A stretch of 64,000 bases of DNA. Origin: Terriglobia bacterium (GTDB taxonomy: Bacteria > Acidobacteriota > Terriglobia > Terriglobales > Acidobacteriaceae). The position numbers and the translations under genes were made by a program. Shown here piece after piece: positions 3,371 to 15,948 of this stretch. Numbering within the stretch: the first letter of the stretch is position 1; each line of letters opens with the position of its first letter. The notes under the pieces are model-generated. The model searched no databases. It worked only from the letters and a program-made list of their open reading frames with translations, and was not told the origin of the DNA. The DNA is taken from assembly GCA_020072585.1 (NCBI GenBank), contig JAIQGL010000031.1, positions 1 to 64,000 on the forward strand. Direction: 5' to 3'.

Positions 3371-3814
3371 CTAACCGAACACATACTTCGGATCAAATGG
3401 CACGTCGTGCTTTTTCAACAATGCGACAAATTCATCCTCGAAACTTTGCTTGCGATGATGCGCCTCCTGGGTATCAATGTATTTGATTACCGCCGCAACA
3501 TGGGAAGAGCTCACGGCAAACGCTCCATACCCCTCCTGCCAGGCAAATCTCTCGTCCCGTTCCCTGATCCATTTTGAGGTATTGGATTTTACAAGCGTCA
3601 CGGCGTTAGCCAGTGCCACCGTCGGAGGCAGCCGGAAAAGAAGATGAATATGTTCCTCCATCCCACCAACGGCAAACGTCAACAGGTCATGATTTTTACA
3701 GACCGCCGCTGTATAAGCCCATAGGCGCGGTAAAAACTTACGCTCTAGAAACCTCTCGCGGTTCTTTGTACTGAATACAAGGTGGATATGATTTTGCGCG
3801 TAACTGTGGGACAT
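3371..3814 (-). CDS. REP-associated tyrosine transposase (RAYT, IS200-like)
   Basis: A 147-aa Y1-transposase (TnpA_REP/IS200 fold). The HUH motif is visible as EEHIHLLF (His-hydrophobic-His), and the likely catalytic Tyr is in the helix VIKYIDTQEAHH. The N-terminus YAQNHIHLVFSTKNRERF is typical of the family. The length agrees with single-domain RAYTs. It is flanked by about 90-bp inverted copies of REP-like sequence, as expected for RAYTs that mobilise REPINs. No frameshift is present, so it may be functional. Confidence 0.9.
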   Translation of the reverse strand: MSHSYAQNHIHLVFSTKNRERFLERKFLPRLWAYTAAVCKNHDLLTFAVGGMEEHIHLLFRLPPTVALANAVTLVKSNTSKWIRERDERFAWQEGYGAFAVSSSHVAAVIKYIDTQEAHHRKQSFEDEFVALLKKHDVPFDPKYVFG

Positions 3815-3854
3815 TCTGTTCCCCCTGGGCCGCTGATTTTACATGTTGCGTATG

Positions 3855-3946
3855 GGTGTCGCCACCTACGGGGCTCGCAACTAATCGACTCAGGCTACCC
3901 GGGGCTCCCGCCGCCGGGCTAGGCTCGTCCGCGCTCTCCGGCGCTG
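3855..3946 (-). repeat. right REP/REPIN-like inverted repeat of the RAYT unit
   Basis: Inverted copy of 3282-3370 with matching GCGAGCCCCGTAGG, CCCGG and GCGCCGGAGAGCGCGG blocks. The arms differ mainly in the spacers between hairpins, which is typical for REPINs diverging under structural constraint. Confidence 0.8.
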
Positions 3947-3981
3947 CCTAAAAAATTTTGCACGCAGCGCGATTTTTTCTA

Positions 3982-4010
3982 TTGACAATTTCCTTAACTA
4001 TCGCGATCAT
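3982..4010 (+). promoter_or_regulatory. promoter of HTH cassette gene 1, predicted leaderless
   Basis: TTGACA (3982-3987), a 17-nt spacer and GATCAT (4005-4010). The ATG at 4020 is only 10 nt downstream, so the transcript should begin about 3 nt before the start codon. The same geometry is found at 39707-39735 and on the minus strand at 26515-26486. Confidence 0.6.
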
Positions 4011-4019
4011 TGAACGCGA

Positions 4020-4295
4020 ATGAAAACGCTTTCCACTCGCGCCGCAGCCAAGAGCCTTGGAATCGCAGAGGCAACATTAAGCCAGTACATCAAGCTTGGA
4101 AAGGTGCCTGCTCCAAATGTGGTCACCAGTGGCGGCATGACGATCCATCTCTGGACCGAGGCCGAAGTCGAACGCGTCCGTCAACTTCTGCCCAAGATCG
4201 CCAACGGCAGAAAGACCCGTTATCAAAAGATACGGGAAAAGCAAAAAGCACAGGCGAAATCGCCTGTGCCTCGCAAATCCAAGAAGGAAAAATAA
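4020..4295 (+). CDS. small HTH (MerR/excisionase-like) cassette regulator 1
   Basis: A 91-aa protein. Residues 1-60 form a winged-helix HTH of the MerR/AlpA type (STRAAAKSLGIAEATLSQYI, then GGMTIHLWTEAEVERVRQ). The signature LPKIANGRKTRY follows, and a Lys-rich tail ends it. The signature is shared by the genes at 26156-26476 and 39745-40005. It has no visible SD, and the promoter predicts a nearly leaderless message. A conserved 60-70 nt leader and then a small gene follow it. It is likely a DNA-binding regulator of the cassette. Confidence 0.75.
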   Translation: MKTLSTRAAAKSLGIAEATLSQYIKLGKVPAPNVVTSGGMTIHLWTEAEVERVRQLLPKIANGRKTRYQKIREKQKAQAKSPVPRKSKKEK

Positions 4296-4346
4296 CCTCA
4301 ACCATTTGGCGAATTGCTATTTGCCAATTGCTAACTGCTTCATCAA

Positions 4347-4410
4347 CGGACGCGCCCGGTGCTATCAACACCGAACGCGCCCTAACCAAATCGCCTTCTT
4401 AGGAGGCAAC
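4347..4410 (+). promoter_or_regulatory. conserved cassette leader, copy 1
   Basis: Shares with 26058-26121 (minus) and 40111-40182 the identical block CACCGAACGCGCCCTAACC and an SD followed by ATGGCTGT. CGGTG (4357-4361) can pair with CACCG (4369-4373). The block ACGCGCCC also occurs as a direct repeat on either side of the hairpin. It could be an operator for the upstream HTH protein or an RNA element. Confidence 0.6.
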
Positions 4411-4605
4411 ATGGCTGTGTTTCAAGGTAAACGTCCTTTTCCCTGGGCGCAAGGCTTGTGCCGTCGCGCTCATGCCGCAATCCCAACCACTCAACAACCA
4501 ATCACTAACATTCAACCCCAAATCCATGGTCTGATCAGCCTTCCGGTTTTCTCCGTGTCTCCGTGTCTCCGTGGTGGGTGCTTCTTCTTCGGAGGCTGCC
4601 TGTGA
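4411..4605 (+). CDS. leader ORF or disrupted 5' end of the DKT gene
   Basis: A 64-aa frame that begins MAV after a strong AGGAGG at the exact place where the other cassettes begin their payload gene (MAVIESK at 26057, MAVHKV at 40183). It carries a dispersed TCTCCGTGTCTCCG repeat (4541-4580) and ends in TGA at 4603-4605. It overlaps the GTG start of the DKT gene at 4602 (GTGA). Most likely the original N-terminus was put out of frame by the repeat insertion. The overlap may keep translation coupled. The peptide itself shows no conserved features. Confidence 0.4.
   Translation: MAVFQGKRPFPWAQGLCRRAHAAIPTTQQPITNIQPQIHGLISLPVFSVSPCLRGGCFFFGGCL
4541..4580 (+). repeat. dispersed repeat (TCTCCGTGTCTCCGTGGTGG type)
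   Basis: A member of the pyrimidine/GTG-rich dispersed family also seen at 879-917 and 34030-34075. Here it lies inside the payload gene of cassette 1 and appears to have displaced the original N-terminal reading frame. Confidence 0.55.
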
Positions 4606-4925
4606 AACGCCAACCCAAACCAATCAAAGAAAAGCTGCCTATCTCCGTTACCAATCGCGAAGGCAAAACCACCGTCCGCAAATACATTGACCGCCGCTTT
4701 GTTCGCATGAATGAAGTTCGTGGCAAGACCATAGCCTATGTGGAGCTGTATACCTCCAAGCAGGACAGCCACTCCCTCACCCTCCGCTTCACTGACAAAA
4801 CGCGCCTCGCCCTGGCTATTTCGCCGGGCTTTACCATCAATGCCGAATATTACAAAACGGAAGGTCTGGCCGATCCCACGGTGCTCAAGCGCTGGCCGGA
4901 AATCCGCAGCGAACAGCTACCCTGA
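4602..4925 (+). CDS. DKT-motif small protein, cassette 1 payload
   Basis: A 107-aa paralog of the proteins at 192-497 and 25677-26057. The conserved parts are REGKTTVRKYIDRRF (shared with the 25677 copy), RGKTIAYVELYTS, SLTLRFTDKTRLALAI and a WPEIRSE end. The start at GTG 4602 is favoured by GGAGG at 4591-4595, six bases upstream. Reading farther upstream would enter a repeat. It sits downstream of the HTH gene and the conserved leader and is followed by an intrinsic terminator at 4942. Function unknown. Confidence 0.65.
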   Translation: MKRQPKPIKEKLPISVTNREGKTTVRKYIDRRFVRMNEVRGKTIAYVELYTSKQDSHSLTLRFTDKTRLALAISPGFTINAEYYKTEGLADPTVLKRWPEIRSEQLP

Positions 4926-4941
4926 TAAACGAAGCAACAAA

Positions 4942-4970
4942 GGCGGGCGCAGTTTGCCCGCCCTTCATTA
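4942..4970 (+). terminator. terminator of cassette 1
   Basis: GGCGGGC, a 7-nt loop and GCCCGCC are followed by a T-containing tail (CTTCATTATT). It lies 17 nt past the stop of the DKT gene. A second, weaker hairpin (GCAGCC...GGCTGC near 5020) lies before the next gene end. Confidence 0.7.
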
Positions 4971-5098
4971 TTACCTCACGCCGTAGGCTCGCGCGCAGCT
5001 GCCGGAAGCCCATATAGCAGCCCGAATTTGGCTGCCGGGCTGGAGGTCAGCGGAGCGCGCGCTCAAAAAATGATCGTCCCTTACCCATACGATGCGAT

Positions 5099-6205
5099 CT
5101 ATTTGGTCTGCCTCGCCAGCTTCCCTGCGTCGATGCGCCACAGGTCGCCCTTGCCGTGGTCAGAGATCCAGACCGAGCCAAAGGCATAGAGAATCGCGTC
5201 GGCCTTGGGATAGTTGCCGTACTGGTCAACCACCTTGTTGCGCGCGGGGTCGATGCGTGTGAGCGGCGTCCCACTCATGGTGACCCAGATGTAGCCGCCG
5301 CCGAAGCTGATCTCACCGCCGGCGCCGGGAACCTGGGCCGCGATGACCGCCTTGACCCGGTTGGTGAGCGGATCGATGCGCGTGACGCTGCCGTCGGACT
5401 GGCTGAGCACCCAGAGGGAGTCTGCCCCGAAGGTGGCAAAGCGCGGGCCCGCGGCCACGGTGATCATGGCCGTGACTTTCCCCGTGGTGGGATTCACCCG
5501 GTAGACCAGGCCTTCGTCTGAGCTGATCACCCACACGGAGCCGAAGCCCAGCTTGACCACGGAGGAATTTTTGCCCACGGCGACCCGTCGGATGGTACGG
5601 CCGTTCTTTACGCTCACCTGCGTGAGCGTGGTGGGATGGCCATAGTCATTGCTCACGAACCATACGCTGCGCGCGTCCACGGCGATGGAGCCTTCGCCGG
5701 CGGAGTCGATTTTGACCGGAACGCGCAGGTCAACCTTGTTGGCTTTGGGGTCGACGCGCGTGAGCGTCTGGCTCTGGCAGTTCAGCACCCACACGCGGTC
5801 CGTGCCGACGCCGATTCCGTAACACGGCTCTTTGTCCACGGGCACGCGGGCCTGCACCACGTTGCGTGCAGGGTCCACGCGGACCAGTTCGTTGGTCTTG
5901 GGCGCCGACACCCAGACCGATCCAAAGCCGGTGGCAAGCCAGTCGGGGTCGCCGCCGATGGCGATTTTCTGTGAGATGGGCAGAGTGGAAGCGTCAAGCT
6001 TAGCGAAACTGGCGTCCGCTTTTGTTGGCTGGCTCGCTTTCGGCGGCTGGCCGGTTTTGCTTTGCTGGCCGCTTTTGGTTTGCTGGCTGATGGCGCTCAG
6101 CGCGGTAACAGCCAGCGCAATCAATAGTACGATCCTGGCGGTCCGCCGGCCAGGCTTCACTGCCATAGTCCATGGTGCTGTAAACGTTTTCATGCCGAGA
6201 GACAT
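5099..6205 (-). CDS. exported YVTN/Vgb-like beta-propeller protein
   Basis: A 368-aa protein with a signal peptide (ARIVLLIALAVTALSAISQ) and then a Gln/Lys/Pro-rich linker. It then has seven or so propeller blades of the virginiamycin B lyase / YncE type, each with a GSVWVS- or SLWVLS-like strand and a T-RIDP turn. Such proteins are periplasmic or secreted, and lyase activity cannot be assumed. The start may be the ATG at 6205 or at 6193. It is divergent from the ECF sigma gene, with about 170 bp between them. Confidence 0.8.
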   Translation of the reverse strand: MSLGMKTFTAPWTMAVKPGRRTARIVLLIALAVTALSAISQQTKSGQQSKTGQPPKASQPTKADASFAKLDASTLPISQKIAIGGDPDWLATGFGSVWVSAPKTNELVRVDPARNVVQARVPVDKEPCYGIGVGTDRVWVLNCQSQTLTRVDPKANKVDLRVPVKIDSAGEGSIAVDARSVWFVSNDYGHPTTLTQVSVKNGRTIRRVAVGKNSSVVKLGFGSVWVISSDEGLVYRVNPTTGKVTAMITVAAGPRFATFGADSLWVLSQSDGSVTRIDPLTNRVKAVIAAQVPGAGGEISFGGGYIWVTMSGTPLTRIDPARNKVVDQYGNYPKADAILYAFGSVWISDHGKGDLWRIDAGKLARQTK

Positions 6206-6372
6206 GGTAGCGTATCGGCGGTCTTCCGTTGAGTTACGAAATAGCCTTCATCCAACCTAAGGATTTTCTAAGATTTTTTGCTTCGGATCGTCCAAAAATG
6301 CAAATAGCCACAAAAATAGTGCTTGTTCATAAATCTCTGTAGGTTAAAATCCCCCAAGTTCCCACTTCGCCC

Positions 6373-7014
6373 ATGGACCCTCGGAAGCTGTCTACGCAAG
6401 AGCTGGTGCAGCTTTGTCTCGACTCGAAAGATGAAGCTAGTTGGACGGAATTCGTCCGCCGTTTTCAGCCACTGATTGCGGGCGTCGTAACCAAGTACGT
6501 TCGCCATCGCACCAGCCGAGTCAACCCGGATCTTATTGATGACCTCATCCAGGAAACGTATCTAAAACTGTGCGCTAACGATTTCAAACCCTTGCGCACG
6601 TTTGATTTCCGCCATGACAATGCGTTCTTCGGCTTCCTTAAGGTCGTGGCGTCGCACGTTGTTGAAGACTACTTCCGCAGACCCACCCCGGACAGGCCCG
6701 GCCGCGAAGAGGAAGATATCGAGACGCTCAAGATCGCTATTCCTTCGAAACACGGGATTGACCCGGCAGAACTTGAAATCCTTTTCCGCGAGGTTAACCA
6801 ATGCCTCAATGAACACGCATCGGACCCGAATTTCACCCGCGACCATACAATTTTTTGGCTCTATTACCGTCAGGGCTTTACTGCTAAAGCCATTTCGCAA
6901 CTACCAGGCATAGGCCTGGGCGTAAAGGGTGTTGAAAGCACGTTAGTGCGGCTGACTGGCATGCTGCGCGCCAGGCTGGCAATCCCGCGTAAAAGAAGGG
7001 CCTCTGGCGGATAA
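6373..7014 (+). CDS. ECF-type RNA polymerase sigma factor
   Basis: A 213-aa sigma-70-family protein. Region 2 is seen around residues 25-85 (LIDDLIQETYLKL, FFGFLKVVASHVVEDYFRR). Region 4 is around residues 145-205 (FWLYYRQGFTAKAI and VESTLVRLTGML). It is the first gene of an operon with a zinc-finger anti-sigma protein, a TPR-CHAT protease, an exported unknown and a caspase-like protease. In ECF systems the adjacent ZAS-domain protein holds the sigma factor until a signal or proteolysis frees it. Here the neighbouring proteases are obvious candidates for that step, which is inference. Confidence 0.9.
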   Translation: MDPRKLSTQELVQLCLDSKDEASWTEFVRRFQPLIAGVVTKYVRHRTSRVNPDLIDDLIQETYLKLCANDFKPLRTFDFRHDNAFFGFLKVVASHVVEDYFRRPTPDRPGREEEDIETLKIAIPSKHGIDPAELEILFREVNQCLNEHASDPNFTRDHTIFWLYYRQGFTAKAISQLPGIGLGVKGVESTLVRLTGMLRARLAIPRKRRASGG

Positions 7015-7173
7015 AAATCCACTGTGTGTGGGCATATACTTCTTTAGTTATTTCTTAGCGCAAACAGGGTCAGCACGGCGGCTGCCGCTTCGTACCGCAT
7101 TCTTGCCATTACGCATTTGCCGCCAAAGGACGAACGGCCTGAATTACGTTCATATAAAGGAGATGTGGTTTTT

Positions 7174-8397
7174 GTGAATGAACAATCTGAGCACTTGAGC
7201 AATGCTCAAATTGAAAACTATGGGAATCGATCTTCCGGTGCGGGACCGGATGCGGACCAGCACGACGAGGCACGGATTAACGCCCACCTCGCCGACTGCC
7301 CTTCCTGTCGCAGTCACCTGCTCGATTTCCACCGCACCAACTTCGGGCTTCTAGCAGACTCCAAGCAGCTCGTGGACCTACGAGTGAATACGGCTTCCAC
7401 TCCGGACTGCCCCAGCGAAGATGACCTTCGCCAACTCGCCGCAGGCCTGTCACCGCAAGCGATCAACACCAAGCTGACTCGCCACGCTGCCACCTGTAAC
7501 CGTTGCGCTCAACTTCTCAGGATATATACCGAAATTTACTCTGACGACTTTAGTGTTGAAGAGCAGGCGGTGCTGGAGCAGCTAAAAAGCGCGTCTCCGG
7601 AATGGCAGCAGCAAACCGCGCGGACAATGTTGCGCGCCTCTGCCGCCTCAAATGCATCGAGCGTATCTGAAACATCAAACGTATCCGTAACCAATTCCAG
7701 TTTCGCTGCCAAACTCCGCCGATTTTTTTCGACGAAATGGATGCTGATCCCCGCCACCGCTGCCGCATGCGCGATCGCTTTCAGCGTTTGGTACGTTCAA
7801 CGCGATACCCCGGAAAAAGTAGAAAAGCTGCTGGCCCAGGCGTATACGGATAATCGCAACATAGAGATTCGAATCCCAGGCGCGAAACATAGCGATTTTC
7901 ATCAAAAGCGCGGCGAGGTTGGGTCGCTGATTAGCTCACCAAAGACATTGCGAAAGGCTGCCAATGAGATTGGGGACCAGTTGAAGCAGAACCCGGACTC
8001 TCCGAAGTGGCTGCTGTTACAGGTGCGCCTCGACTTGCTCGATTGGCGTTACAAACCCGCCATCGCCACACTGAATAAGATAACCGACGACAAAATCGTC
8101 AATTCGCCTGATGGACTCATGGCCCGAGCTATGACCGCATACGAGCAAGCCGAATCCGAACATGAACAGCAGGGCTATTTCGAAGCGATAGACCTATTAG
8201 GAAAAATCCTTCAGAAGAATCCAAACGAAGCCGTCGCCTTATTCAATAGGGCAATTATTTGTGAAAAACAGCACGCGTTCGAGTGCGCTTCTGGCGACTG
8301 GAAGCATTTGCTTGAAGTTGAGGAGGATCCCGGTTGGTCAAGTGAAGCCCGCGAGCACCTTAATCGCATAGAAGAAAAAAAAAAGCTCGCGCATTAG
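7174..8397 (+). CDS. zinc-finger anti-sigma / TM / TPR protein (N-part of a CHAT fusion)
   Basis: A 407-aa protein. Residues 1-60 hold a ZAS-type anti-sigma finger (HLADCPSCRSHL), and a second finger-like HAATCNRCAQLL follows. One membrane segment lies near residue 200 (WMLIPATAAACAIAFSVWYV). The C-terminal part is TPR-like. The GTG at 7174 is preferred because AAGGAG lies at 7157-7162; the upstream TTG at 7117 has no SD. The frame ends at 8397, just after an A10 run (8375-8384). A -1 shift at that run continues directly into the TPR-CHAT frame, so this is probably the N-terminal half of one protein. Confidence 0.8.
   Translation: MNEQSEHLSNAQIENYGNRSSGAGPDADQHDEARINAHLADCPSCRSHLLDFHRTNFGLLADSKQLVDLRVNTASTPDCPSEDDLRQLAAGLSPQAINTKLTRHAATCNRCAQLLRIYTEIYSDDFSVEEQAVLEQLKSASPEWQQQTARTMLRASAASNASSVSETSNVSVTNSSFAAKLRRFFSTKWMLIPATAAACAIAFSVWYVQRDTPEKVEKLLAQAYTDNRNIEIRIPGAKHSDFHQKRGEVGSLISSPKTLRKAANEIGDQLKQNPDSPKWLLLQVRLDLLDWRYKPAIATLNKITDDKIVNSPDGLMARAMTAYEQAESEHEQQGYFEAIDLLGKILQKNPNEAVALFNRAIICEKQHAFECASGDWKHLLEVEEDPGWSSEAREHLNRIEEKKKLAH
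8375..8384 (+). other. A10 run joining anti-sigma and CHAT frames
   Basis: Ten consecutive A residues precede the stop of the anti-sigma frame. In the -1 frame the codons after the run (KARALDLRRLQDPKAARDEL) stay open through the TTG at 8400 into the 810-codon CHAT frame. Slippage in transcription or translation, or a homopolymer indel, would give one fused protein. Confidence 0.65.
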
Positions 8398-8399
8398 AT

Positions 8400-10832
8400 T
8401 TGAGACGCCTACAAGACCCCAAAGCAGCGCGGGACGAACTGGTTACCAGAGATTCTGCTGGCCCCCTACAGAGCGAAGTTTATCTTGATATCGCAGTAGC
8501 TAGCTGGCTATTGAGCGATGAGTCTTCCGGTTCACAGACGCGACAAGCGCTTGGGCACCTAAGTAAGGCCATGGAGCGGAATCACGGCGACTTGTGGCTG
8601 TCCGATTTTCTCAAATCGCCCTCGTCCAAGAAGGCGAAGTCTCTGCTGCAATCTGCGATTCGAGCAAATCATGACGGCAGGTTGGATGACGCCGAAAGAG
8701 AGGCTCGCCTTGCCCGGGACTTGTTCATTCGCACTCGAAACAATGCAGGCTCCGCCCGCAGCGAGTTCGAAATTGTGTATGCACTGCATCGGGGCTCTCA
8801 TGCGGAGCAATGCGTGCGAGAGATACCAAATCTCCAGGCGCTATTGATAGGTCGGAGTTACCATTGGCTTGAGATCCAGCTCTTGCTTGAACTCTCGAGC
8901 TGCCGAGGCATGCAAACTGAGTTTGATTCCGCCTGGAAATTAGTAAGCGAAGCCATTGATCAAACCAAGAGATGCAGTTTCCCAATTCTCAATCTACGTG
9001 CAACTGGATTCCAGGCTTCCCTCAACACGGTTGAAGGAAGGTTTCGGGAGTCGTGGCGAGATAATTCTTTTGGTCTGGGCAGCTTCTGGGCCGGCTCTTT
9101 CCCACCAGATCGAGGGTTCCAATTTTATTCTGATTTAGAGCTTGCTGCAGAACGGTCGGACGAATGGCATCTCGCGGCTGTTCTTCAACGAGAAGTTCTC
9201 GCTATGCTCAATGAGAGCGGCCGAACGAATCTCGCTGCTTTGGCGCATTTTCGTTTAATCGGCCTGTTGGAGGCCATCGGAGATACACAAGGAGGAGAAC
9301 GGGAACTCAATGTTAGCTCTGATCTCTTCAGCACACTGCCGCCCAGCGAACAAAAAGACCTTTACGTGAACTATTCAGAGGTCATGCTCGCCACTGTCCT
9401 TCTTCGCAATGGAGCTGTAGACTCTGCCTCAGCACACCTAAAACGAGTTAGCACCAATCTGAATCGGTGGGACAATTTCAATCTGCATCTCAGGTTTTTG
9501 AAGGTGGCGGCTGAGATCGCACGCCGCAACACAGATCCAACAGAGCAAAATCTTCTTACTGATCTAGTAGCGGTTGGAGATTCAGGTTTCGCTCAACTTC
9601 ATTCTCCAAAGAACCGGTGGGACTGGGACCGCGAGATTGGACCGGGATATCGCCGCCTCTTGGAGTTAGAGACTTTGCAGCCTCATGCAGAGGAACAGGT
9701 TCTCGCCGATTGGGAAAATTACCGCGTCAAAGCGGTGTCTGGCTCATACCCAACTCCAGGATCCCCTGTTCGAAATGGAATAGCTAAAGCCCTGCTGCAC
9801 AAGAGGATAGCACGCCTCAAGAACTCTACGGTCCTGACGTTCGGCATTCTTCCGGGATCGATTATGGCGTGGGTCTCGGATGATCGCGGCGTGCGGCAAT
9901 TCGCTTTGTCCATTGATCAGTCCACACTCAAAAAAGAGGTCCAGCAGTTTCACCTTCTTTGCTCTGATCGACAATCGTCCATCCAAAAGGTAAATGAAGT
10001 CAGTTCACGTTTATACGAATGGTTGCTGGCTCCGGTGGAACGTGCCCTTGATCCTAAAAGGACCCTTTTTATCGAAGCGGACGAATTCCTGGGACTTATA
10101 CCTTGGGCGGCATTAGTGATGAAAAACGGAACATATCTCGGCGAATCGTTCACCATCATCAACACGCCGGGAATTTTCTTTGCGACGGGTTCTCACGCTG
10201 ATCAAGCAGTTAGGCATGCTCTTGTCGCCGAACCAGGCGCCGTCGAGTTTGAAGGTGTTCGGTATGTTCCGTTGCCTCACGCTACACAAGAAGCCGAAGG
10301 TATAGTCCAGTTGTACCCTGGGGCTATTCCTTTAAACGGGAATCAGGTCACGGCCGAAGCGTTGCTCCAGGAGTTGCCGAAAGCTTCCATTTTTCAATTC
10401 TCCGGCCACGCCACTGATCGGGAATATGGCGGCGAGTTGCTCGTGCATGACAAAACTGGTGGCGGTACGACCTTCTCCGCAAGCACTTTGTCGAACATTA
10501 CGCTTTCTCAGGCCAAGCTAGTTGTGCTTTCGGCATGCTCAACGGCTCTCAGCGGCAACGGGACTCTAACTAATCCACATGGACTCGTATCGGCATTTTT
10601 GACAGCAGGCGCAAAAAGCGTTGTAGCCAGCAACTGGGACGTTGACTCTGCATCAACGGCTGATTTGATGGTTCATTTTCATAAGCTTTTCCGCACCGGC
10701 CACTCCGCTTCTCAGGCCCTGAGGCTCGCACAGCACACTGTATTTGCCGATCGGGAGACAGCGCATCCTTTTTACTGGGCGGCGTTCGCCGAATTTGAGC
10801 AAATACCAACATTTGTGGAAGGCTCTTTATGA
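8400..10832 (+). CDS. TPR-CHAT caspase-like protease
   Basis: About 810 aa. Residues 1-420 are helical repeats of the TPR kind. The C-terminal 250 residues are a CHAT domain (clan CD, caspase-like) with the catalytic His in FSGHATD (about residue 670) and Cys in LSACSTA (about 713). GLVSAFLTAGAKSVV and FYWAAFAEF at the end are classical CHAT blocks. Only a TTG at 8400 without SD is available as a start, which supports synthesis as a fusion with the anti-sigma protein upstream. The stop overlaps the next start by 4 nt (ATGA). It is likely the proteolytic part of a sigma-factor control module. Confidence 0.85.
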   Translation: MRRLQDPKAARDELVTRDSAGPLQSEVYLDIAVASWLLSDESSGSQTRQALGHLSKAMERNHGDLWLSDFLKSPSSKKAKSLLQSAIRANHDGRLDDAEREARLARDLFIRTRNNAGSARSEFEIVYALHRGSHAEQCVREIPNLQALLIGRSYHWLEIQLLLELSSCRGMQTEFDSAWKLVSEAIDQTKRCSFPILNLRATGFQASLNTVEGRFRESWRDNSFGLGSFWAGSFPPDRGFQFYSDLELAAERSDEWHLAAVLQREVLAMLNESGRTNLAALAHFRLIGLLEAIGDTQGGERELNVSSDLFSTLPPSEQKDLYVNYSEVMLATVLLRNGAVDSASAHLKRVSTNLNRWDNFNLHLRFLKVAAEIARRNTDPTEQNLLTDLVAVGDSGFAQLHSPKNRWDWDREIGPGYRRLLELETLQPHAEEQVLADWENYRVKAVSGSYPTPGSPVRNGIAKALLHKRIARLKNSTVLTFGILPGSIMAWVSDDRGVRQFALSIDQSTLKKEVQQFHLLCSDRQSSIQKVNEVSSRLYEWLLAPVERALDPKRTLFIEADEFLGLIPWAALVMKNGTYLGESFTIINTPGIFFATGSHADQAVRHALVAEPGAVEFEGVRYVPLPHATQEAEGIVQLYPGAIPLNGNQVTAEALLQELPKASIFQFSGHATDREYGGELLVHDKTGGGTTFSASTLSNITLSQAKLVVLSACSTALSGNGTLTNPHGLVSAFLTAGAKSVVASNWDVDSASTADLMVHFHKLFRTGHSASQALRLAQHTVFADRETAHPFYWAAFAEFEQIPTFVEGSL

Positions 10833-11728
10833 AAACTACTCGGCGCACAGCACTGAAGGTCTTAGTCGCGAGTTCGCTATTACCTCTGGCTGAGCGATGC
10901 GCCACTGCAAAGTCACAAACACGAATCGTTTCAGGAGGGATCGGGATGGCGAAAGACACTTGCTACGTCAACATCTTGTTACATGGTTTGTTCTTTATGG
11001 AATTCGCAAACAACCTTTTAGTTGTCACCGCGCCGGATATTGGCATGCACAAATATTGCATGGTTAACAATGGCTTTCTTACGGAATTCCCACAAAAAGT
11101 AAAACCAATAGACATTGACCTTGGTCCCTCCTCACTGAGTGGTTTGCAAAAGGGGGCCGTCAACAAGTTCACAGACTATCCAGCCATTCCGCAATTTTCA
11201 AAAAAAGACGCAAAAGTGGGAGACCTCAAAACCAATTACCGCTTGCAGATTCTGTTGCCTCAACCCGAAGAGATCATCCCATTGAGGCGCGCGGAGCTTT
11301 CTGATTTCCAGAAAGTCGCACCGAATGGGAATATCGCCAAGAGAGTCTTCGACTCCTGCAGCCAAGGAGGTAAAAATAGCAAATTCTCTTTACTTACATG
11401 CCTCAGGTACACCAAGCAGCCGGCTTTTGGCTCACCTCCTACTGTCACGATAGGCTTTTATGCTGAACACAAAGACTTTCCAAAGATTTCCGAGATGAAC
11501 GCGACCTACACCCAGGCACAGGCGATTTGGCAGACTGGAGCCAATTTTGATCTTCAACTGCAGGAAATATTTCCGCCTTCCCCTAAGGTTTGCCCAGAGG
11601 TCCATCCTGGTTACGGAATCGTTCCAGACGATGAAAACAGCCTCGCCGAACTCTTACTGGAGGTTCCTTGTTCATCTAAAAAGGGAACGGATGTAGCCAA
11701 TTGTGTTCAGTTTGGCGTGAACCCCTGA
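10829..11728 (+). CDS. Tat-like exported protein of unknown function
   Basis: A 299-aa protein with an N-terminal RR motif (TRRTALKVLVASSLLPLA) like a short Tat signal. The body has several Cys residues and no domain that I recognise. It overlaps the CHAT gene by 4 nt and is followed after 53 nt by the caspase-like gene, so it belongs to the same operon. An internal ATG at 10946 (MAKDTCYVN) follows AGGAGGGATCGGG and is an alternative start that would give a cytoplasmic protein. It may be a substrate or partner of the proteases. Confidence 0.65.
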   Translation: MKTTRRTALKVLVASSLLPLAERCATAKSQTRIVSGGIGMAKDTCYVNILLHGLFFMEFANNLLVVTAPDIGMHKYCMVNNGFLTEFPQKVKPIDIDLGPSSLSGLQKGAVNKFTDYPAIPQFSKKDAKVGDLKTNYRLQILLPQPEEIIPLRRAELSDFQKVAPNGNIAKRVFDSCSQGGKNSKFSLLTCLRYTKQPAFGSPPTVTIGFYAEHKDFPKISEMNATYTQAQAIWQTGANFDLQLQEIFPPSPKVCPEVHPGYGIVPDDENSLAELLLEVPCSSKKGTDVANCVQFGVNP

Positions 11729-11781
11729 TGGGTTCACGAGAGAAACGCCAGTATTCATCACGGATGCAAAAAGGAGACTCG

Positions 11782-12591
11782 ATGGCGTACGGTTTGAGTC
11801 TACATGTCGGGGTCGGCTCGGTGGATGAGCAGCATTATCTGGGATGGTCAGGGCAAGCCCCTTCCTGCGAACATGACGCTTCCAATATGGCAGCACTAGC
11901 TAAGTCTTGCGGATTCTTTCCGACTCTACTCCTGACAAGGGACGCGACTGCTGATCGCGTCCTCGACGAGATTCGGAAGGCTGCCGGAAGGTTGAATGGT
12001 GGCGACATACTCCTCATTTCTTACTCGGGTCATGGCACCACAGTTCCAGATATCAATGGTGACGAACCGAGCGGCCAAGATGACGTATGGGCCTTGTATA
12101 ATCGCATGTTGATTGACGACGAGTTGTACAGTCTGTGGAGTGAATTCCATCTTGGCGTACGTGTCGTAGTCGTTGTCGACAGCTGTACGGATGGAACCAT
12201 TATTTCTGTTCCCCTTTCGCTGCAGCAGATCTCACATCGTCAGAAGCAGCTTCACGCTCGCGCCATGCCGCGTGAAGTTACCAATTTAGTATACAAGGCC
12301 CACCAAACGTTTTATGACGACATCCAGATGAAGACGACACGTCATCCTCCCCAAAGTACGGTTCTCCTCTTGTCAAGTTCTCAGGATGGGGAACCCTCGT
12401 TTGATGACGGGAGTAACGGACTTTTTACTCGAGCGCTGACCAATGTTTGGCAAAATGGAAAGTTTGAGGGCCACTATTGCAACATGTATGTCGAAATCTC
12501 TAACCGAACACGTACCCTGCAAAACCCTAACTTTTACCTAATCGGGCCGACGGATCCAGTTTTCCCTTGCCAAAAGCCGTTTAAGATTTAG
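11782..12591 (+). CDS. caspase-like (peptidase C14) protease
   Basis: A 269-aa metacaspase-type p20 domain. The catalytic His is in ISYSGHGTTVPD (about residue 84) and the Cys is in VVVDSCTDGT (about residue 135). The early segment HDASNMAALA and the later VLLLSSSQDGEPSFD and GLFTRAL are typical of the family. ATG 11782 is chosen because AAGGAG lies 5 nt upstream; the longer readings lack an SD. It is the last gene of the sigma/anti-sigma/CHAT operon. No signal peptide is present, so it should act in the cytoplasm. Confidence 0.85.
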   Translation: MAYGLSLHVGVGSVDEQHYLGWSGQAPSCEHDASNMAALAKSCGFFPTLLLTRDATADRVLDEIRKAAGRLNGGDILLISYSGHGTTVPDINGDEPSGQDDVWALYNRMLIDDELYSLWSEFHLGVRVVVVVDSCTDGTIISVPLSLQQISHRQKQLHARAMPREVTNLVYKAHQTFYDDIQMKTTRHPPQSTVLLLSSSQDGEPSFDDGSNGLFTRALTNVWQNGKFEGHYCNMYVEISNRTRTLQNPNFYLIGPTDPVFPCQKPFKI

Positions 12592-12660
12592 CTGTTGCCT
12601 CTCCTGTTTTCTGTTTTTGGCAGGATGGGATATCCTCCTAATTTCATTCTGGAGGATACC

Positions 12661-15600
12661 GTGCCCTCATTCTCGCGCCACGCATCGTTGCTGATCGTTC
12701 TCGCACTACTCGCCATCCCAGTTCTCGCCCAGAAGACGTCCGCTCCCTCAACAAGCGTAAAGAAACCTGCGCAAAAGGTTGCCGCGCGCTCGCAATTGGC
12801 CCCACGCGCCGCGCAGCGAGTCCCCCTGTCCCAAGTAAATCCGGCCCTCCTCTCTTCCCTCCATTGGCGCTCCATCGGCCCATTCCGTGGCGGGCGCACC
12901 CGTGCCGTCTCCGGTGTGCCCAGCCAGCCGAACGTCTTTTATATAGGCGTGTGCAATGGCGGAGTCTGGAAGACCAACGACTACGGTCGTACCTGGAAGC
13001 CCATCTTTGACGACCAGCCCACAGGCTCCATCGGCGCGATTGCCGTCGCGCCGTCGGATCCGAATATCGTTTATGTTGCCAGCGGTGAAGGGCTGCACCG
13101 GCCGGACCTCTCCGTGGGTGATGGCATTTACAAATCGACCGATGCAGGCAAGACCTGGACGCATCTTGGCCTGCGCGATGGCCAGCAGATACCCGGACTC
13201 GCCGTCGACCCGCGCGATCCCAACAAAGTGTTTGCCGCCGTTGCGGGACATCCGTACGGGCCCAACACTGAGCGCGGCGTGTATCGATCCACGGATGGTG
13301 GCCAGAACTTTCAGAAGGTCCTGCCTACAACCAACGACGAAAATATCGGCGCTGACGATGTCCTGATTGATCCCACGGACTCCAGTATTGTTTACGCCAC
13401 GCTTTGGGAAGCGCGCCAGGGCCCCTGGGAAAACGGCGCGTGGAACGGATCAAACGGCGGCATCTTTAAATCCACGGACGGCGGCGCAACCTTCCAGCAG
13501 CTCACTAGCGGCCTTCCTAAAGAAATCATTCAGGCGCACATCGCCATCGCGGAAAGCAATCCTAAACGCCTGTTCGCGTCCGTCGGGTTCAAGCCGAACA
13601 GCGTCGCGCTCTACCGCTCTGATGACGCGGGCCAGACTTGGACGCAAGCCACTACTGACACACGGCCAGCGGGAAGAATCGGCGGTGGAGATCTTTCTGT
13701 GCCGCGATTCAATCCCAAAGATCCTGACACCATCATCGTCACCAGCACGGTTACCTGGAAATCCACGGACGGCGGCAAGACCTGGACCGGCTTCCGCGGC
13801 GCGCCCGGCGGCGACGACTACCAGAACGTCTGGATCAACCCCAACAATCCTGAAATTATTATTCTGGCCAGCGACCAGGGCGCCATCGTAACGGTGAACG
13901 GCGGCGAGACGTGGAGCTCCTGGTACAACCAGCCCACGGCGCAGATGTACCACGTAAATGCTGATAACGCTTTTCCCTATCGCCTATGCAGCGGCCAGCA
14001 GGAGAGCGGTTCGGCGTGCGTCTCCAGCCGCGGGAATGATGGTGAGATCACCATTCGCGAGTGGCATCCCGTGGCTGCGGAGGAATACGGCTACGTGGTG
14101 CCGGATCCGCTGGATCCGGAGATTATCTTTGGCGGCAAGCTCACCCGGTATGATCGCCGCACCGCTCAGGCGCAGAACATCATGCCCAAACCTTTACGCG
14201 GTCCGGATTTCCGCGTGCTGCGCACCGCCCCTATCGTTTTTTCTCCCATCAATCCGCGCGTCATGTACTTCGGCGCCAACACGCTCTGGAAGACGATGAA
14301 TGGCGGTCAGAGCTGGCAGCAGATCTCCCCTGACCTGACCCGCGCGGACTTTGAAGTTCCTGCCGGCATTGGCAAGTTCCGCTCAGAGCCAACGGCCAAA
14401 GCCACGCAGCGCGGCGTGATTTACGCCGTGGCTCCATCACCGCTTGATGTCAACCGCATCTGGGCCGGAACAGACGACGGACGTATTCATCTCACCACGG
14501 ACGGCGGCAAGAACTGGAGTGAGATCACGCCGCCGGACATGAAGCCGTTCCAGAAAGTGTCCGTGATTGACGCCAGCCACTTTGATGCGCAGACGGCGTA
14601 CGCCGCCATCAATACTTTGCGCCTTGACGACCTGCGTCCCCACATCCTGCGCACGCGTGACTCCGGTAAGACCTGGACGGAGATCGTCAACGGCATCCCC
14701 GGCAATGAAAACGTAAATGCCGTACGTGAAGACCCCATTCGCCGCGGACTGCTGTTCGCTGCCACGGAGCGCGCTGTCCATGTTTCTTTCGATGACGGTG
14801 ACCACTGGCAGTCATTGCGGCTCAACATGCCCGCCGGTTCCGTGCGCGACGTCATCATCAAGAATGACGATCTCGCCGTCGGCACGCATGGCCGTGGCTT
14901 CTGGATACTGGATGACATTACTCCACTGCGGCAGATTGATCAGAAAACACTGGCAGCGGAAGCGGCGCTTTTCAAACCGCAAGCCGCCATCCGCGTTCGC
15001 TGGAACATGAACACAGATACGCCGCTGCCGCCGGACTTCCCTGCCGGTGAGAATCCGCCCGATGGCGCCGTAATCAACTACTATCTTCAGACTGCCGCCA
15101 GCGGCCCGGTCACTCTTGAAATCAAGGACGCTGCCGGCAAGACCGTCCGCAAATATTCCAGCGCTGATAAACCTGACCCAATCGATCCCATGTTGAATAT
15201 TCCCGCATACTGGGTGCGTCCGTCACAAACTCTCTCGGCTGCTGCCGGTATGCATCGCTGGCTGTGGGACATGCATTATCCCAACGTGCCCGGCGTGGAG
15301 CCGGAATATCCCATTGCCGCTATTCCGCACAACACTGCACCGGCGCCCAGCGGCCCCTGGGTCATGCCTGGGCAATATACCGTCGTTTTGACGGCAAACG
15401 GCAAAAGCTACTCGCAGCCGCTTACGGTCAAGATGGATCCTCGCGTCAAGACCGCGCCAACAGGTCTGGCGCAGCAGTTTCGGCAGTCTCAGCAGCTTTA
15501 CAACCAGCTTTTGACTCTTGCTCCTGCAGTGGAGCAGGCGGGCGACCTTCGCAAACAAATCAAAGCGCTGCAAAAGCAGGCGCAGGGAAACGTGCTCACC

Positions 15601-15948
15601 GCAGTCAACGCGCTTGATCAAAAGCTCGATGAAGTAGCTGGCGGCGGCGCGCCTCGTCGCCCCGGCGCCGGCAATCAGCCGCCGAATCTGGGCTTAATGC
15701 GCGCACGCTATCTCGCCCTGCTAGGCGCACTGCAGGAAGCGGACGTTGCACCCACCACCCAGGCCAGCGCCGCGGTGGACGAACTTGCCAAACAACTCAC
15801 GCCCTTGATGCAGAGCTGGCAGAAGATCAAAACGCAAGAGCTGCCCGCACTGAACCAGCAGTTGAAAAACGCCAACCTGCCGGAGCTGAAACTGGCCAGT
15901 TTGATAATGCCGGCAACGGCCACGGTCTCGTCGAAGGATGAGGATTAG
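12661..15948 (+). CDS. exported sortilin/BNR-repeat propeller protein
   Basis: About 1095 aa with a signal peptide (ASLLIVLALLAIPVLAQ) directly after the GTG at 12661, which has GGAGG ten bases upstream. The body shows many BNR/Asp-box turns (KSTDAGKTW, RSDDAGQTW, KSTDGGKTW, LTTDGGKNW) as in VPS10/sortilin-type ten-bladed propellers. A C-terminal helical part rich in Gln and Ala follows. Homologs are common and multicopy in Acidobacteria, usually called glycosyl-hydrolase-like or WD40/YVTN/BNR proteins. Their enzyme activity is unproven. Confidence 0.85.
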   Translation: MPSFSRHASLLIVLALLAIPVLAQKTSAPSTSVKKPAQKVAARSQLAPRAAQRVPLSQVNPALLSSLHWRSIGPFRGGRTRAVSGVPSQPNVFYIGVCNGGVWKTNDYGRTWKPIFDDQPTGSIGAIAVAPSDPNIVYVASGEGLHRPDLSVGDGIYKSTDAGKTWTHLGLRDGQQIPGLAVDPRDPNKVFAAVAGHPYGPNTERGVYRSTDGGQNFQKVLPTTNDENIGADDVLIDPTDSSIVYATLWEARQGPWENGAWNGSNGGIFKSTDGGATFQQLTSGLPKEIIQAHIAIAESNPKRLFASVGFKPNSVALYRSDDAGQTWTQATTDTRPAGRIGGGDLSVPRFNPKDPDTIIVTSTVTWKSTDGGKTWTGFRGAPGGDDYQNVWINPNNPEIIILASDQGAIVTVNGGETWSSWYNQPTAQMYHVNADNAFPYRLCSGQQESGSACVSSRGNDGEITIREWHPVAAEEYGYVVPDPLDPEIIFGGKLTRYDRRTAQAQNIMPKPLRGPDFRVLRTAPIVFSPINPRVMYFGANTLWKTMNGGQSWQQISPDLTRADFEVPAGIGKFRSEPTAKATQRGVIYAVAPSPLDVNRIWAGTDDGRIHLTTDGGKNWSEITPPDMKPFQKVSVIDASHFDAQTAYAAINTLRLDDLRPHILRTRDSGKTWTEIVNGIPGNENVNAVREDPIRRGLLFAATERAVHVSFDDGDHWQSLRLNMPAGSVRDVIIKNDDLAVGTHGRGFWILDDITPLRQIDQKTLAAEAALFKPQAAIRVRWNMNTDTPLPPDFPAGENPPDGAVINYYLQTAASGPVTLEIKDAAGKTVRKYSSADKPDPIDPMLNIPAYWVRPSQTLSAAAGMHRWLWDMHYPNVPGVEPEYPIAAIPHNTAPAPSGPWVMPGQYTVVLTANGKSYSQPLTVKMDPRVKTAPTGLAQQFRQSQQLYNQLLTLAPAVEQAGDLRKQIKALQKQAQGNVLTAVNALDQKLDEVAGGGAPRRPGAGNQPPNLGLMRARYLALLGALQEADVAPTTQASAAVDELAKQLTPLMQSWQKIKTQELPALNQQLKNANLPELKLASLIMPATATVSSKDED

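Follow-up and report, generated by a model that had tools for sequence, protein, structure and literature searches.

An ECF sigma factor module of Acidobacteriota with a candidate slippage site in a zinc-finger/TPR-CHAT membrane protein and a third protein of a putative new family

Extracytoplasmic function (ECF) sigma factors that are held by a membrane anti-sigma factor are freed by regulated proteolysis in systems of the RseA/DegS and RsiW type. Systems of this type are named in the sections of PMC10028731 used here, which also describe Craspase (Csx29, Csx30, CASP-sigma), in which a protease combining tetratricopeptide repeats (TPR) and a CHAT domain relieves a sigma inhibitor by cleavage. 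The ECF54 group is presented in the corresponding part of PMC8999054 with CHAT, subtilase or carboxypeptidase neighbours and is described there as being without an anti-sigma factor. In the dnaX gene of Thermus thermophilus, transcriptional slippage on an A9 run makes half of the product the short form, and such runs are under-represented in the coding regions of many genomes, according to the excerpted text of PMC1088944. In this work, we analyzed a locus at positions 6373-12591 on the plus strand of a 64,000-nucleotide stretch of contig JAIQGL010000031.1 from a Terriglobia bacterium (the whole stretch is called the window below) and compared its five reading frames, genes 1 to 5, with related loci (L numbers). 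To judge from these comparisons, genes 1-4 make up a single copy of a conserved module encoding an ECF sigma factor, a zinc-finger/TPR-CHAT protein and a third protein, and not part of one five-gene system.

A reading made earlier from the letters of the window (the sequence-only reading) had proposed an operon of an ECF sigma factor, a membrane-bound zinc-finger anti-sigma protein, a TPR-CHAT protein, an exported protein and a C14 caspase. All five frames were confirmed as present, with domain matches of the kinds proposed, gene 2 having a membrane segment and two zinc-finger motifs, and both proteases having His and Cys. The features of the locus are as follows.

6373-7014, plus strand: ECF sigma factor, 213 amino acids (TIGR02937, 3.2e-12, 46.4 bits, cut-off 42.9)
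7174-8397, plus strand: zero-frame product, putative zinc-finger anti-sigma protein with one transmembrane segment and TPR; GTG start; TAG begins 11 nucleotides past the A run
7285-7308, plus strand: first H-x3-C-x2-C motif (HLADCPSC), read from the translation
7483-7506, plus strand: second H-x3-C-x2-C motif (HAATCNRC), read from the translation
7741-7797, plus strand: transmembrane segment by hydropathy, predicted N-in/C-out, net charge +4 on the N side and 0 on the C side
8375-8384, plus strand: A10 run, candidate slip tract, GAA GAA AAA AAA AAG, with the heptamer A_AAA_AAG in register
8385-10832, plus strand: TPR-CHAT part, apparently one gene with the zero-frame product, read at -1 with no stop across the A run
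9996-10790, plus strand: CHAT protease domain PF12770 (5.5e-50), His codon 10407-10409, Cys codon 10536-10538
10829-11728, plus strand: third component, fast-evolving member of a putative new family, twin-arginine leader by eye; ATGA overlap with the CHAT stop, preceded by GGAAGG
11782-12591, plus strand: C14 caspase-like protein, PF00656 (6e-20), His codon 12031-12033, Cys codon 12184-12186

The sigma factor also passed the Pfam r2 model (24.3 bits, cut-off 24). Anti-sigma models matched gene 2 only below their cut-offs (zf-HC2, 17.9 of 22.2 bits; NF052375, 24 of 100). The start of gene 2 is most likely the GTG at 7174, which is preceded by AAAGGAG, and not position 7117. A PADLOC search gave weak matches only, to BovA for gene 3 (4e-4) and to a caspase model for gene 5 (6e-6), and none for gene 4.

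In the order, 101 of 298 genomes were found to have relatives of the sigma factor at E ≤ 1e-3, many of the weak matches being ordinary ECF sigma factors; five matches, the window sigma factor included, lie in the window's own genome. From 69 regions fetched around the better matches, a module table of 53 rows was compiled, and the 47 rows containing the sigma factor, the zinc-finger part and CHAT form the base set. Six rows were left out of it: L072, L119 and L128 run into contig ends, L090 has its parts on different strands, L097 carries an internal deletion, and in L101 the CHAT is distant. In L071, the sigma gene is interrupted by a stop. A single protein of 1139-1245 amino acids unites the zinc finger, TPR and CHAT in 43 of the 47 loci, the other four being the window, L065, L068 and L073, and a gene of the third-protein family directly follows CHAT in 41 of the 47 (it is missing there in L093, L100, L102, L108, L115 and L117). 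In addition, a third gene was found at the predicted place in all six loci outside its profile (L137, L138, L239, L242, L243 and L244). The CHAT His/Cys dyad is present in 51 of the 53 rows, that is, in every row with an uncut CHAT end, the remaining two being cut by contig ends. The sequence-only reading had named loss of gene order or of catalytic residues in relatives as what would refute it; as the order and the dyad are both kept, neither was found for the sigma, anti-sigma and CHAT genes. The caspase fared differently: among 5788 frames of 79 module-type loci it was found in the window only and was absent from the other 78, and it is therefore no conserved member of the group.

A scan of named genomes with the sigma alignment gave 10 loci, two of them with the complete module, and both hosts are metagenome bins of Acidobacterium sp., which suggests that the module belongs to Acidobacteriota. 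The named-genome contigs gave no match in a scan with gene 4, and the third protein was found in at least 7 of 396 genomes of the phylum, all of the window's family, with at most six candidates scored per genome. A plasmid search returned distant CHAT matches in 191 records, and in no case was 80% of the query covered. In the open-access literature we found no paper joining ECF sigma factors, the CHAT domain and Acidobacteria. In a sister module (L112, L121, L122, L123, L124, L126 and L132), no CHAT was found in the locus; here a relative of the sigma factor precedes a shorter anti-sigma protein, of approximately 360-390 amino acids, that ends in a conserved CMVCHSAMRDRDL-like stretch, and the outer part is different and possibly haem-binding.

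Genes 2 and 3 of the window together align over the whole length of a fused protein, that of L060 (residues 4-385 and 392-1183). The "anti-sigma" and "CHAT" genes, which the sequence-only reading had kept apart, thus appear from the alignment to be two frames of one fused gene, encoding what is a single membrane protein in most of the loci. The sequence at the break is GAA GAA AAA AAA AAG CTC GCG CAT TAG, and its A10 run is the only A/T run of at least eight in the 64-kb window. The CHAT frame lies at -1 and is open across the run; within its first 70 codons in the window, no start codon with a Shine-Dalgarno motif was found, and the TTG at 8400 is without such a motif. Furthermore, in three more genomes of the genus (loci L068, L073 and L239) a T9 run breaks the gene in the matching protein region, again at -1, and the CHAT frame, which continues for about 800 codons without a stop, has no Shine-Dalgarno start. 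Since the anti-sigma parts of the window, L068 and L239 are mutually only 29-38% identical, these are distant copies. A slippery run in a coding region, with the alternative frame open into a conserved domain, as expected of programmed slippage, was thus found.

Runs of this kind are concentrated in this gene. The 1.037 Mb of module loci contain 15 A/T runs of nine or more, of which 13 are inside the zinc-finger/CHAT gene; because seven T10 copies and three T9 copies are related, the independent origins number about five within it and two elsewhere. The two outside runs are at L065:8456-8464, between CHAT and the third gene, and at L088:9532-9540, near the start of a PilZ-domain gene following the third gene. 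In seven fetched genomes of another genus, whose proteins are 46-66% identical, the T10 run is in frame and the six codons GCG CTT TTT TTT TTG GCG are identical in all of them. Of 283 invariant degenerate columns in this group, 20 are codon-identical, and elsewhere a stretch of identical codons is never longer than one; a six-codon run of identity occurred in none of 20000 shuffles. In these seven copies, the run is kept although no shift is required to connect the two parts; loss of a T leads to a stop after 2 codons and gain of a T to a stop after 4-23. A search for a T9-T15 pattern matched 17 of 398 genomes of the family, 14 times in the zinc-finger/CHAT gene and three times in unrelated places, and the 14 copies are all T10, all in frame and all from one genus, of which 24 genomes were searched. 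Near relatives of the T10 group without the run are L098 (T8) and L136 (interrupted), and T9 in L058 and L241 is in frame. The window's own genome has 39 overlapping A9 matches in 6.9 Mb, with two sites in its two modules. Selection on the run at the nucleotide level is thus indicated for the T10 group; for the A10 of the window, no closely related orthologue that includes the junction turned up. No paper joining the CHAT domain with transcriptional slippage was found in the open-access literature.

A transmembrane segment was called by the hydropathy scale in 49 of the 53 rows, and in 44 of these 49 the N side is more positive than the C side, which places TPR-CHAT outside the membrane as a prediction. 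The caspase of the window is without a leader, so that the two proteases are probably in different compartments, as far as predicted topology can tell. Ten caspase relatives, 38-43% identical, were found in other genera, none of them near a module (two are partial, at contig ends), and the His and Cys are kept in all 11 aligned proteins. The gene starts at ATG 11782, 53 nucleotides after gene 4, with AAAAAGGAGA preceding. By these comparisons the caspase is an ordinary C14 protein, linked to the module by lying next to it in one genome, and the five-gene operon as one conserved system was rejected.

The third-protein family was assembled from gene position plus motif. It is marked by an N-terminal h-x-V-x-F-x-G-P, an invariant His about 20 residues on and a near-invariant Cys near the end, which in 46 of 49 proteins falls within the final 22 residues; in the window the motif reads VNILLHGLFF ... 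TAPDIGMHKY, with the Cys eighth from the end. A profile from which the window and L072 had been left out picked up gene 4 (E = 2.6e-4 among 5404 frames), and profile-profile comparison with the family gave 94-96% probability. The best-scoring frames outside the set were, by position, a further copy (L071) and a fragment beside a module (L136). A profile iterated from the window protein alone halted at three frames. None of 48 members matched Pfam or NCBIfam at E ≤ 0.01, and the profile matched no chain in the PDB. An AlphaFold model from three sequences had a pLDDT of 28 and was not used. Export leaders are present in 34 of the 49 proteins (33 called automatically and L096 by eye). As judged by these searches, the third protein is a new family, and as its genomic partner is a steady one, its role lends itself directly to testing.

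Taken together, it is about evenly balanced whether genes 1-4 form an envelope-facing sigma switch with isoforms made by slippage and with the third protein as partner of CHAT. In such a switch, the zinc-finger part would inhibit the sigma factor, as would be expected from known families, and slippage at the run would give two isoforms, an anti-sigma protein without the protease and one carrying CHAT. The third protein would be the cognate partner of the CHAT/TPR part, as ligand, inhibitor or first substrate. When this partner is lost, changed or bound, CHAT might cut itself or neighbouring short isoforms near the membrane, and this cutting could start the release of the sigma factor. The caspase would be an accessory cytoplasmic protease acquired by the window lineage and at most co-transcribed. 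The suicide response suggested by the sequence-only reading was not borne out, the evidence pointing neither way. A fuller version, in which a self-proteolysing anti-sigma receptor has its isoform ratio set by transcriptional slippage at a maintained A/T run and CHAT with its hypervariable partner is an exchangeable recognition cassette that sets the response, is put forward more tentatively, and we would sooner expect it to be wrong than right.

The slippage is more likely transcriptional rather than ribosomal. A ribosomal shift at A_AAA_AAG is possible; in the window an AGGAGG lies about 50 nucleotides upstream of the run, and there is no near upstream Shine-Dalgarno motif. Several other observations weigh against the proposed switch or parts of it. 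In all eight cases examined, the stretch downstream of the run folds no better than shuffles (z from -1.05 to 1.59), and this lack of a stable stem-loop speaks against a stimulated ribosomal shift. The gene has no run of eight or more in 31 of the 47 modules, so that two isoforms by slippage are not universal, and in L071 (A10) and L069 (A9) in-frame runs are at other positions in the gene. The charge rule does not favour an outer C terminus in 5 of 49 rows. Fifteen of the 49 third proteins, mainly one subgroup together with L065 and L072, the nearest relative of the window, are without a recognisable leader and fit badly with a partner outside the membrane. No promoter motif shared upstream of 51 sigma genes was found (the best word pair occurred in 6 of 51, against 4-6 in shuffles), leaving autoregulation unsupported. 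Finally, the window copy itself may have arisen by a recent frameshift mutation or reflect a miscalled homopolymer.

This last point, taken more generally, is the strongest of the alternatives, which we nevertheless consider doubtful: the break would be a plain frameshift mutation or a homopolymer assembly error, the real gene would be fused and in frame, and slippage would have no part in it. Long A/T runs mutate readily and some sequencers undercall them, all four breaks are in one direction, and the fused relative L060, the one compared, has no run. However, an equal direction together with a matching protein region was found in four separately assembled genomes, and the T10 run has exactly this length in all 14 draft genomes that carry it. 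Genome G000 has other runs of 9-10 inside long open frames (380 amino acids at L174 and 642 at L178, frames unchecked as genes). Furthermore, L068 and L073 share the break although their upstream silent-site divergence is about 0.33, at which an untranslated CHAT should have gathered approximately 17 stops per lineage; this argument is weakened by the mosaic described below, as one CHAT may have arrived recently.

The pair L068/L073 bears on another alternative, which is unlikely but deserves weight, namely a polymorphic self/non-self or antagonism system in which CHAT and the third protein are an exchangeable specificity cassette and the sigma factor is a constant reader. Between these loci, the sigma factor is 91%, the anti-sigma part 94% and a second copy of the third gene 84% identical, while CHAT past the run is 51% and the first third protein 46% identical. 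At the nucleotide level this is a sharp, recombination-like mosaic, with about 90% identity until 150-200 nucleotides past the run, about 50% across CHAT and the first third gene, and about 90% again, suggesting that CHAT and the third gene were exchanged together. The dN/dS comparison of the two CHAT parts gave no ratio, silent sites being saturated. In addition, conservation is lowest in the third protein for 7 of 8 comparable pairs (sigma identity of about 68% or more), and differing modules occupy one site flanked by the following two genes among genus mates.

12595-15948, plus strand: flanking BNR/sortilin-like protein, 78-81% identical in three genus mates
5099-6205, minus strand: flanking beta-propeller (Vgb-like) protein, near modules in two genus mates too (65-66%)

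The BNR/sortilin-like gene is a locus marker outside the module, which in the window lies between the two. In the one comparable genus mate, CHAT is 45% and the third protein 27% identical to those of the window, and there is no caspase. In L074, a genus mate near BNR and Vgb-like genes, the gene after the third protein (8652-9749) has a sub-threshold DUF4347 match and a hydrophobic leader and is possibly another add-on like the caspase. The matching locus of the genus mate L062 looks decayed, with a short anti-sigma gene, no CHAT found and a second sigma gene directly before the BNR gene. An IS200-like transposase is at 3371-3814 of the window, about 3 kb upstream of the module. Against a specificity cassette, and equally against coupled exchange in the fuller version of the switch, the mosaic is clear in a single pair only. 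The parts of L137/L138 evolve evenly (0.91, 0.87, 0.88 and 0.83), with no jump, the anti-sigma part is the least conserved in L098/L104, and no toxin, immunity or delivery gene was recognised among the few neighbours scanned.

It is improbable that the locus makes two proteins by design, a membrane anti-sigma protein and a cytoplasmic CHAT protease cooperating with the caspase, in line with the sequence-only reading. L065 does have two genes whose TPR parts overlap in homology, with a short hydrophobic stretch at the N terminus of CHAT that is seen by eye and not called as transmembrane by the hydropathy scale, and in L090 the parts are on opposite strands. These cases are opposed by the lack of a start signal for the window CHAT, by the prevalence of the single protein (43 of 47) and by the caspase, which adjoins no other module. 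Least probable of all is a phase-variation (contingency) site, with DNA slippage switching CHAT on and off between cells, for although in-frame (L058, L241) and out-of-frame (L068, L073, L239) copies coexist, the length is constant, at T10 in 14 genomes (by the T9-T15 pattern, which copies with other flanks would escape) and at T9 in all five copies of the genus whose junction has a T run, and L058 and L068 differ in frame by the base preceding the run and not by its length. Slippage during expression is preferred over phase variation because of this constant run length among the copies found.

The proposed switch can be compared with the systems described at the outset. As in RseA and RsiW, an ECF sigma factor is beside a zinc-finger-type protein with one transmembrane segment, and proteolysis would be the expected release step; in contrast to them, an anti-sigma protein of the window type would carry its own caspase-fold protease domain outside the membrane, and a dedicated third protein follows. 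With ECF54, as far as that group is covered by the source, the module shares an ECF sigma factor adjoining a CHAT protein, but the anti-sigma part appears to belong to the CHAT protein itself, unlike in a group described as anti-sigma-free. The caspase of the window matches GSU0716 (PDB 3bij, C14 caspase-like) across nearly its whole length (3e-66); it has DSCTDG where DSCHSG is found in the 10 relatives. Like dnaX of T. thermophilus, as presented in the excerpt cited, the gene has a run of A9-10 in its coding region and candidate long and short isoforms. The module gene differs in encoding a putative regulatory membrane protein, in having T9, T10 and A10 versions, some of which would need a slip for the long form, and in that its products are predicted. 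If correct, recoding of a signalling receptor at such a run would be an unusual way for a cell to use slippage.

A further parallel is Craspase. The link to type III-E systems drawn in the sequence-only reading holds as a fair analogy, with TPR-CHAT near a sigma factor and its inhibitor, and does not hold as membership: no Cas family was found among the nine proteins scanned at 3371-15948, and no direct repeats of 22 or more within 120 bases were found in window positions 1-25000. The sigma factor was likewise rejected as CASP-sigma (NF041236, 13 bits against a cut-off of 100). Within what the cited sections of PMC10028731 describe, the two have in common that one locus encodes a TPR-CHAT protease, a sigma factor and an inhibitor of sigma, and they differ in that the window-type protease would be fused to the inhibitor and bound to the membrane and in that the third-protein profile matches no PDB chain. 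If the proposed switch is real, inhibitor and protease would be one polypeptide at a locus where no CRISPR system was seen, and the module would be a plausible cousin, in its logic, of the sigma branch of Craspase.

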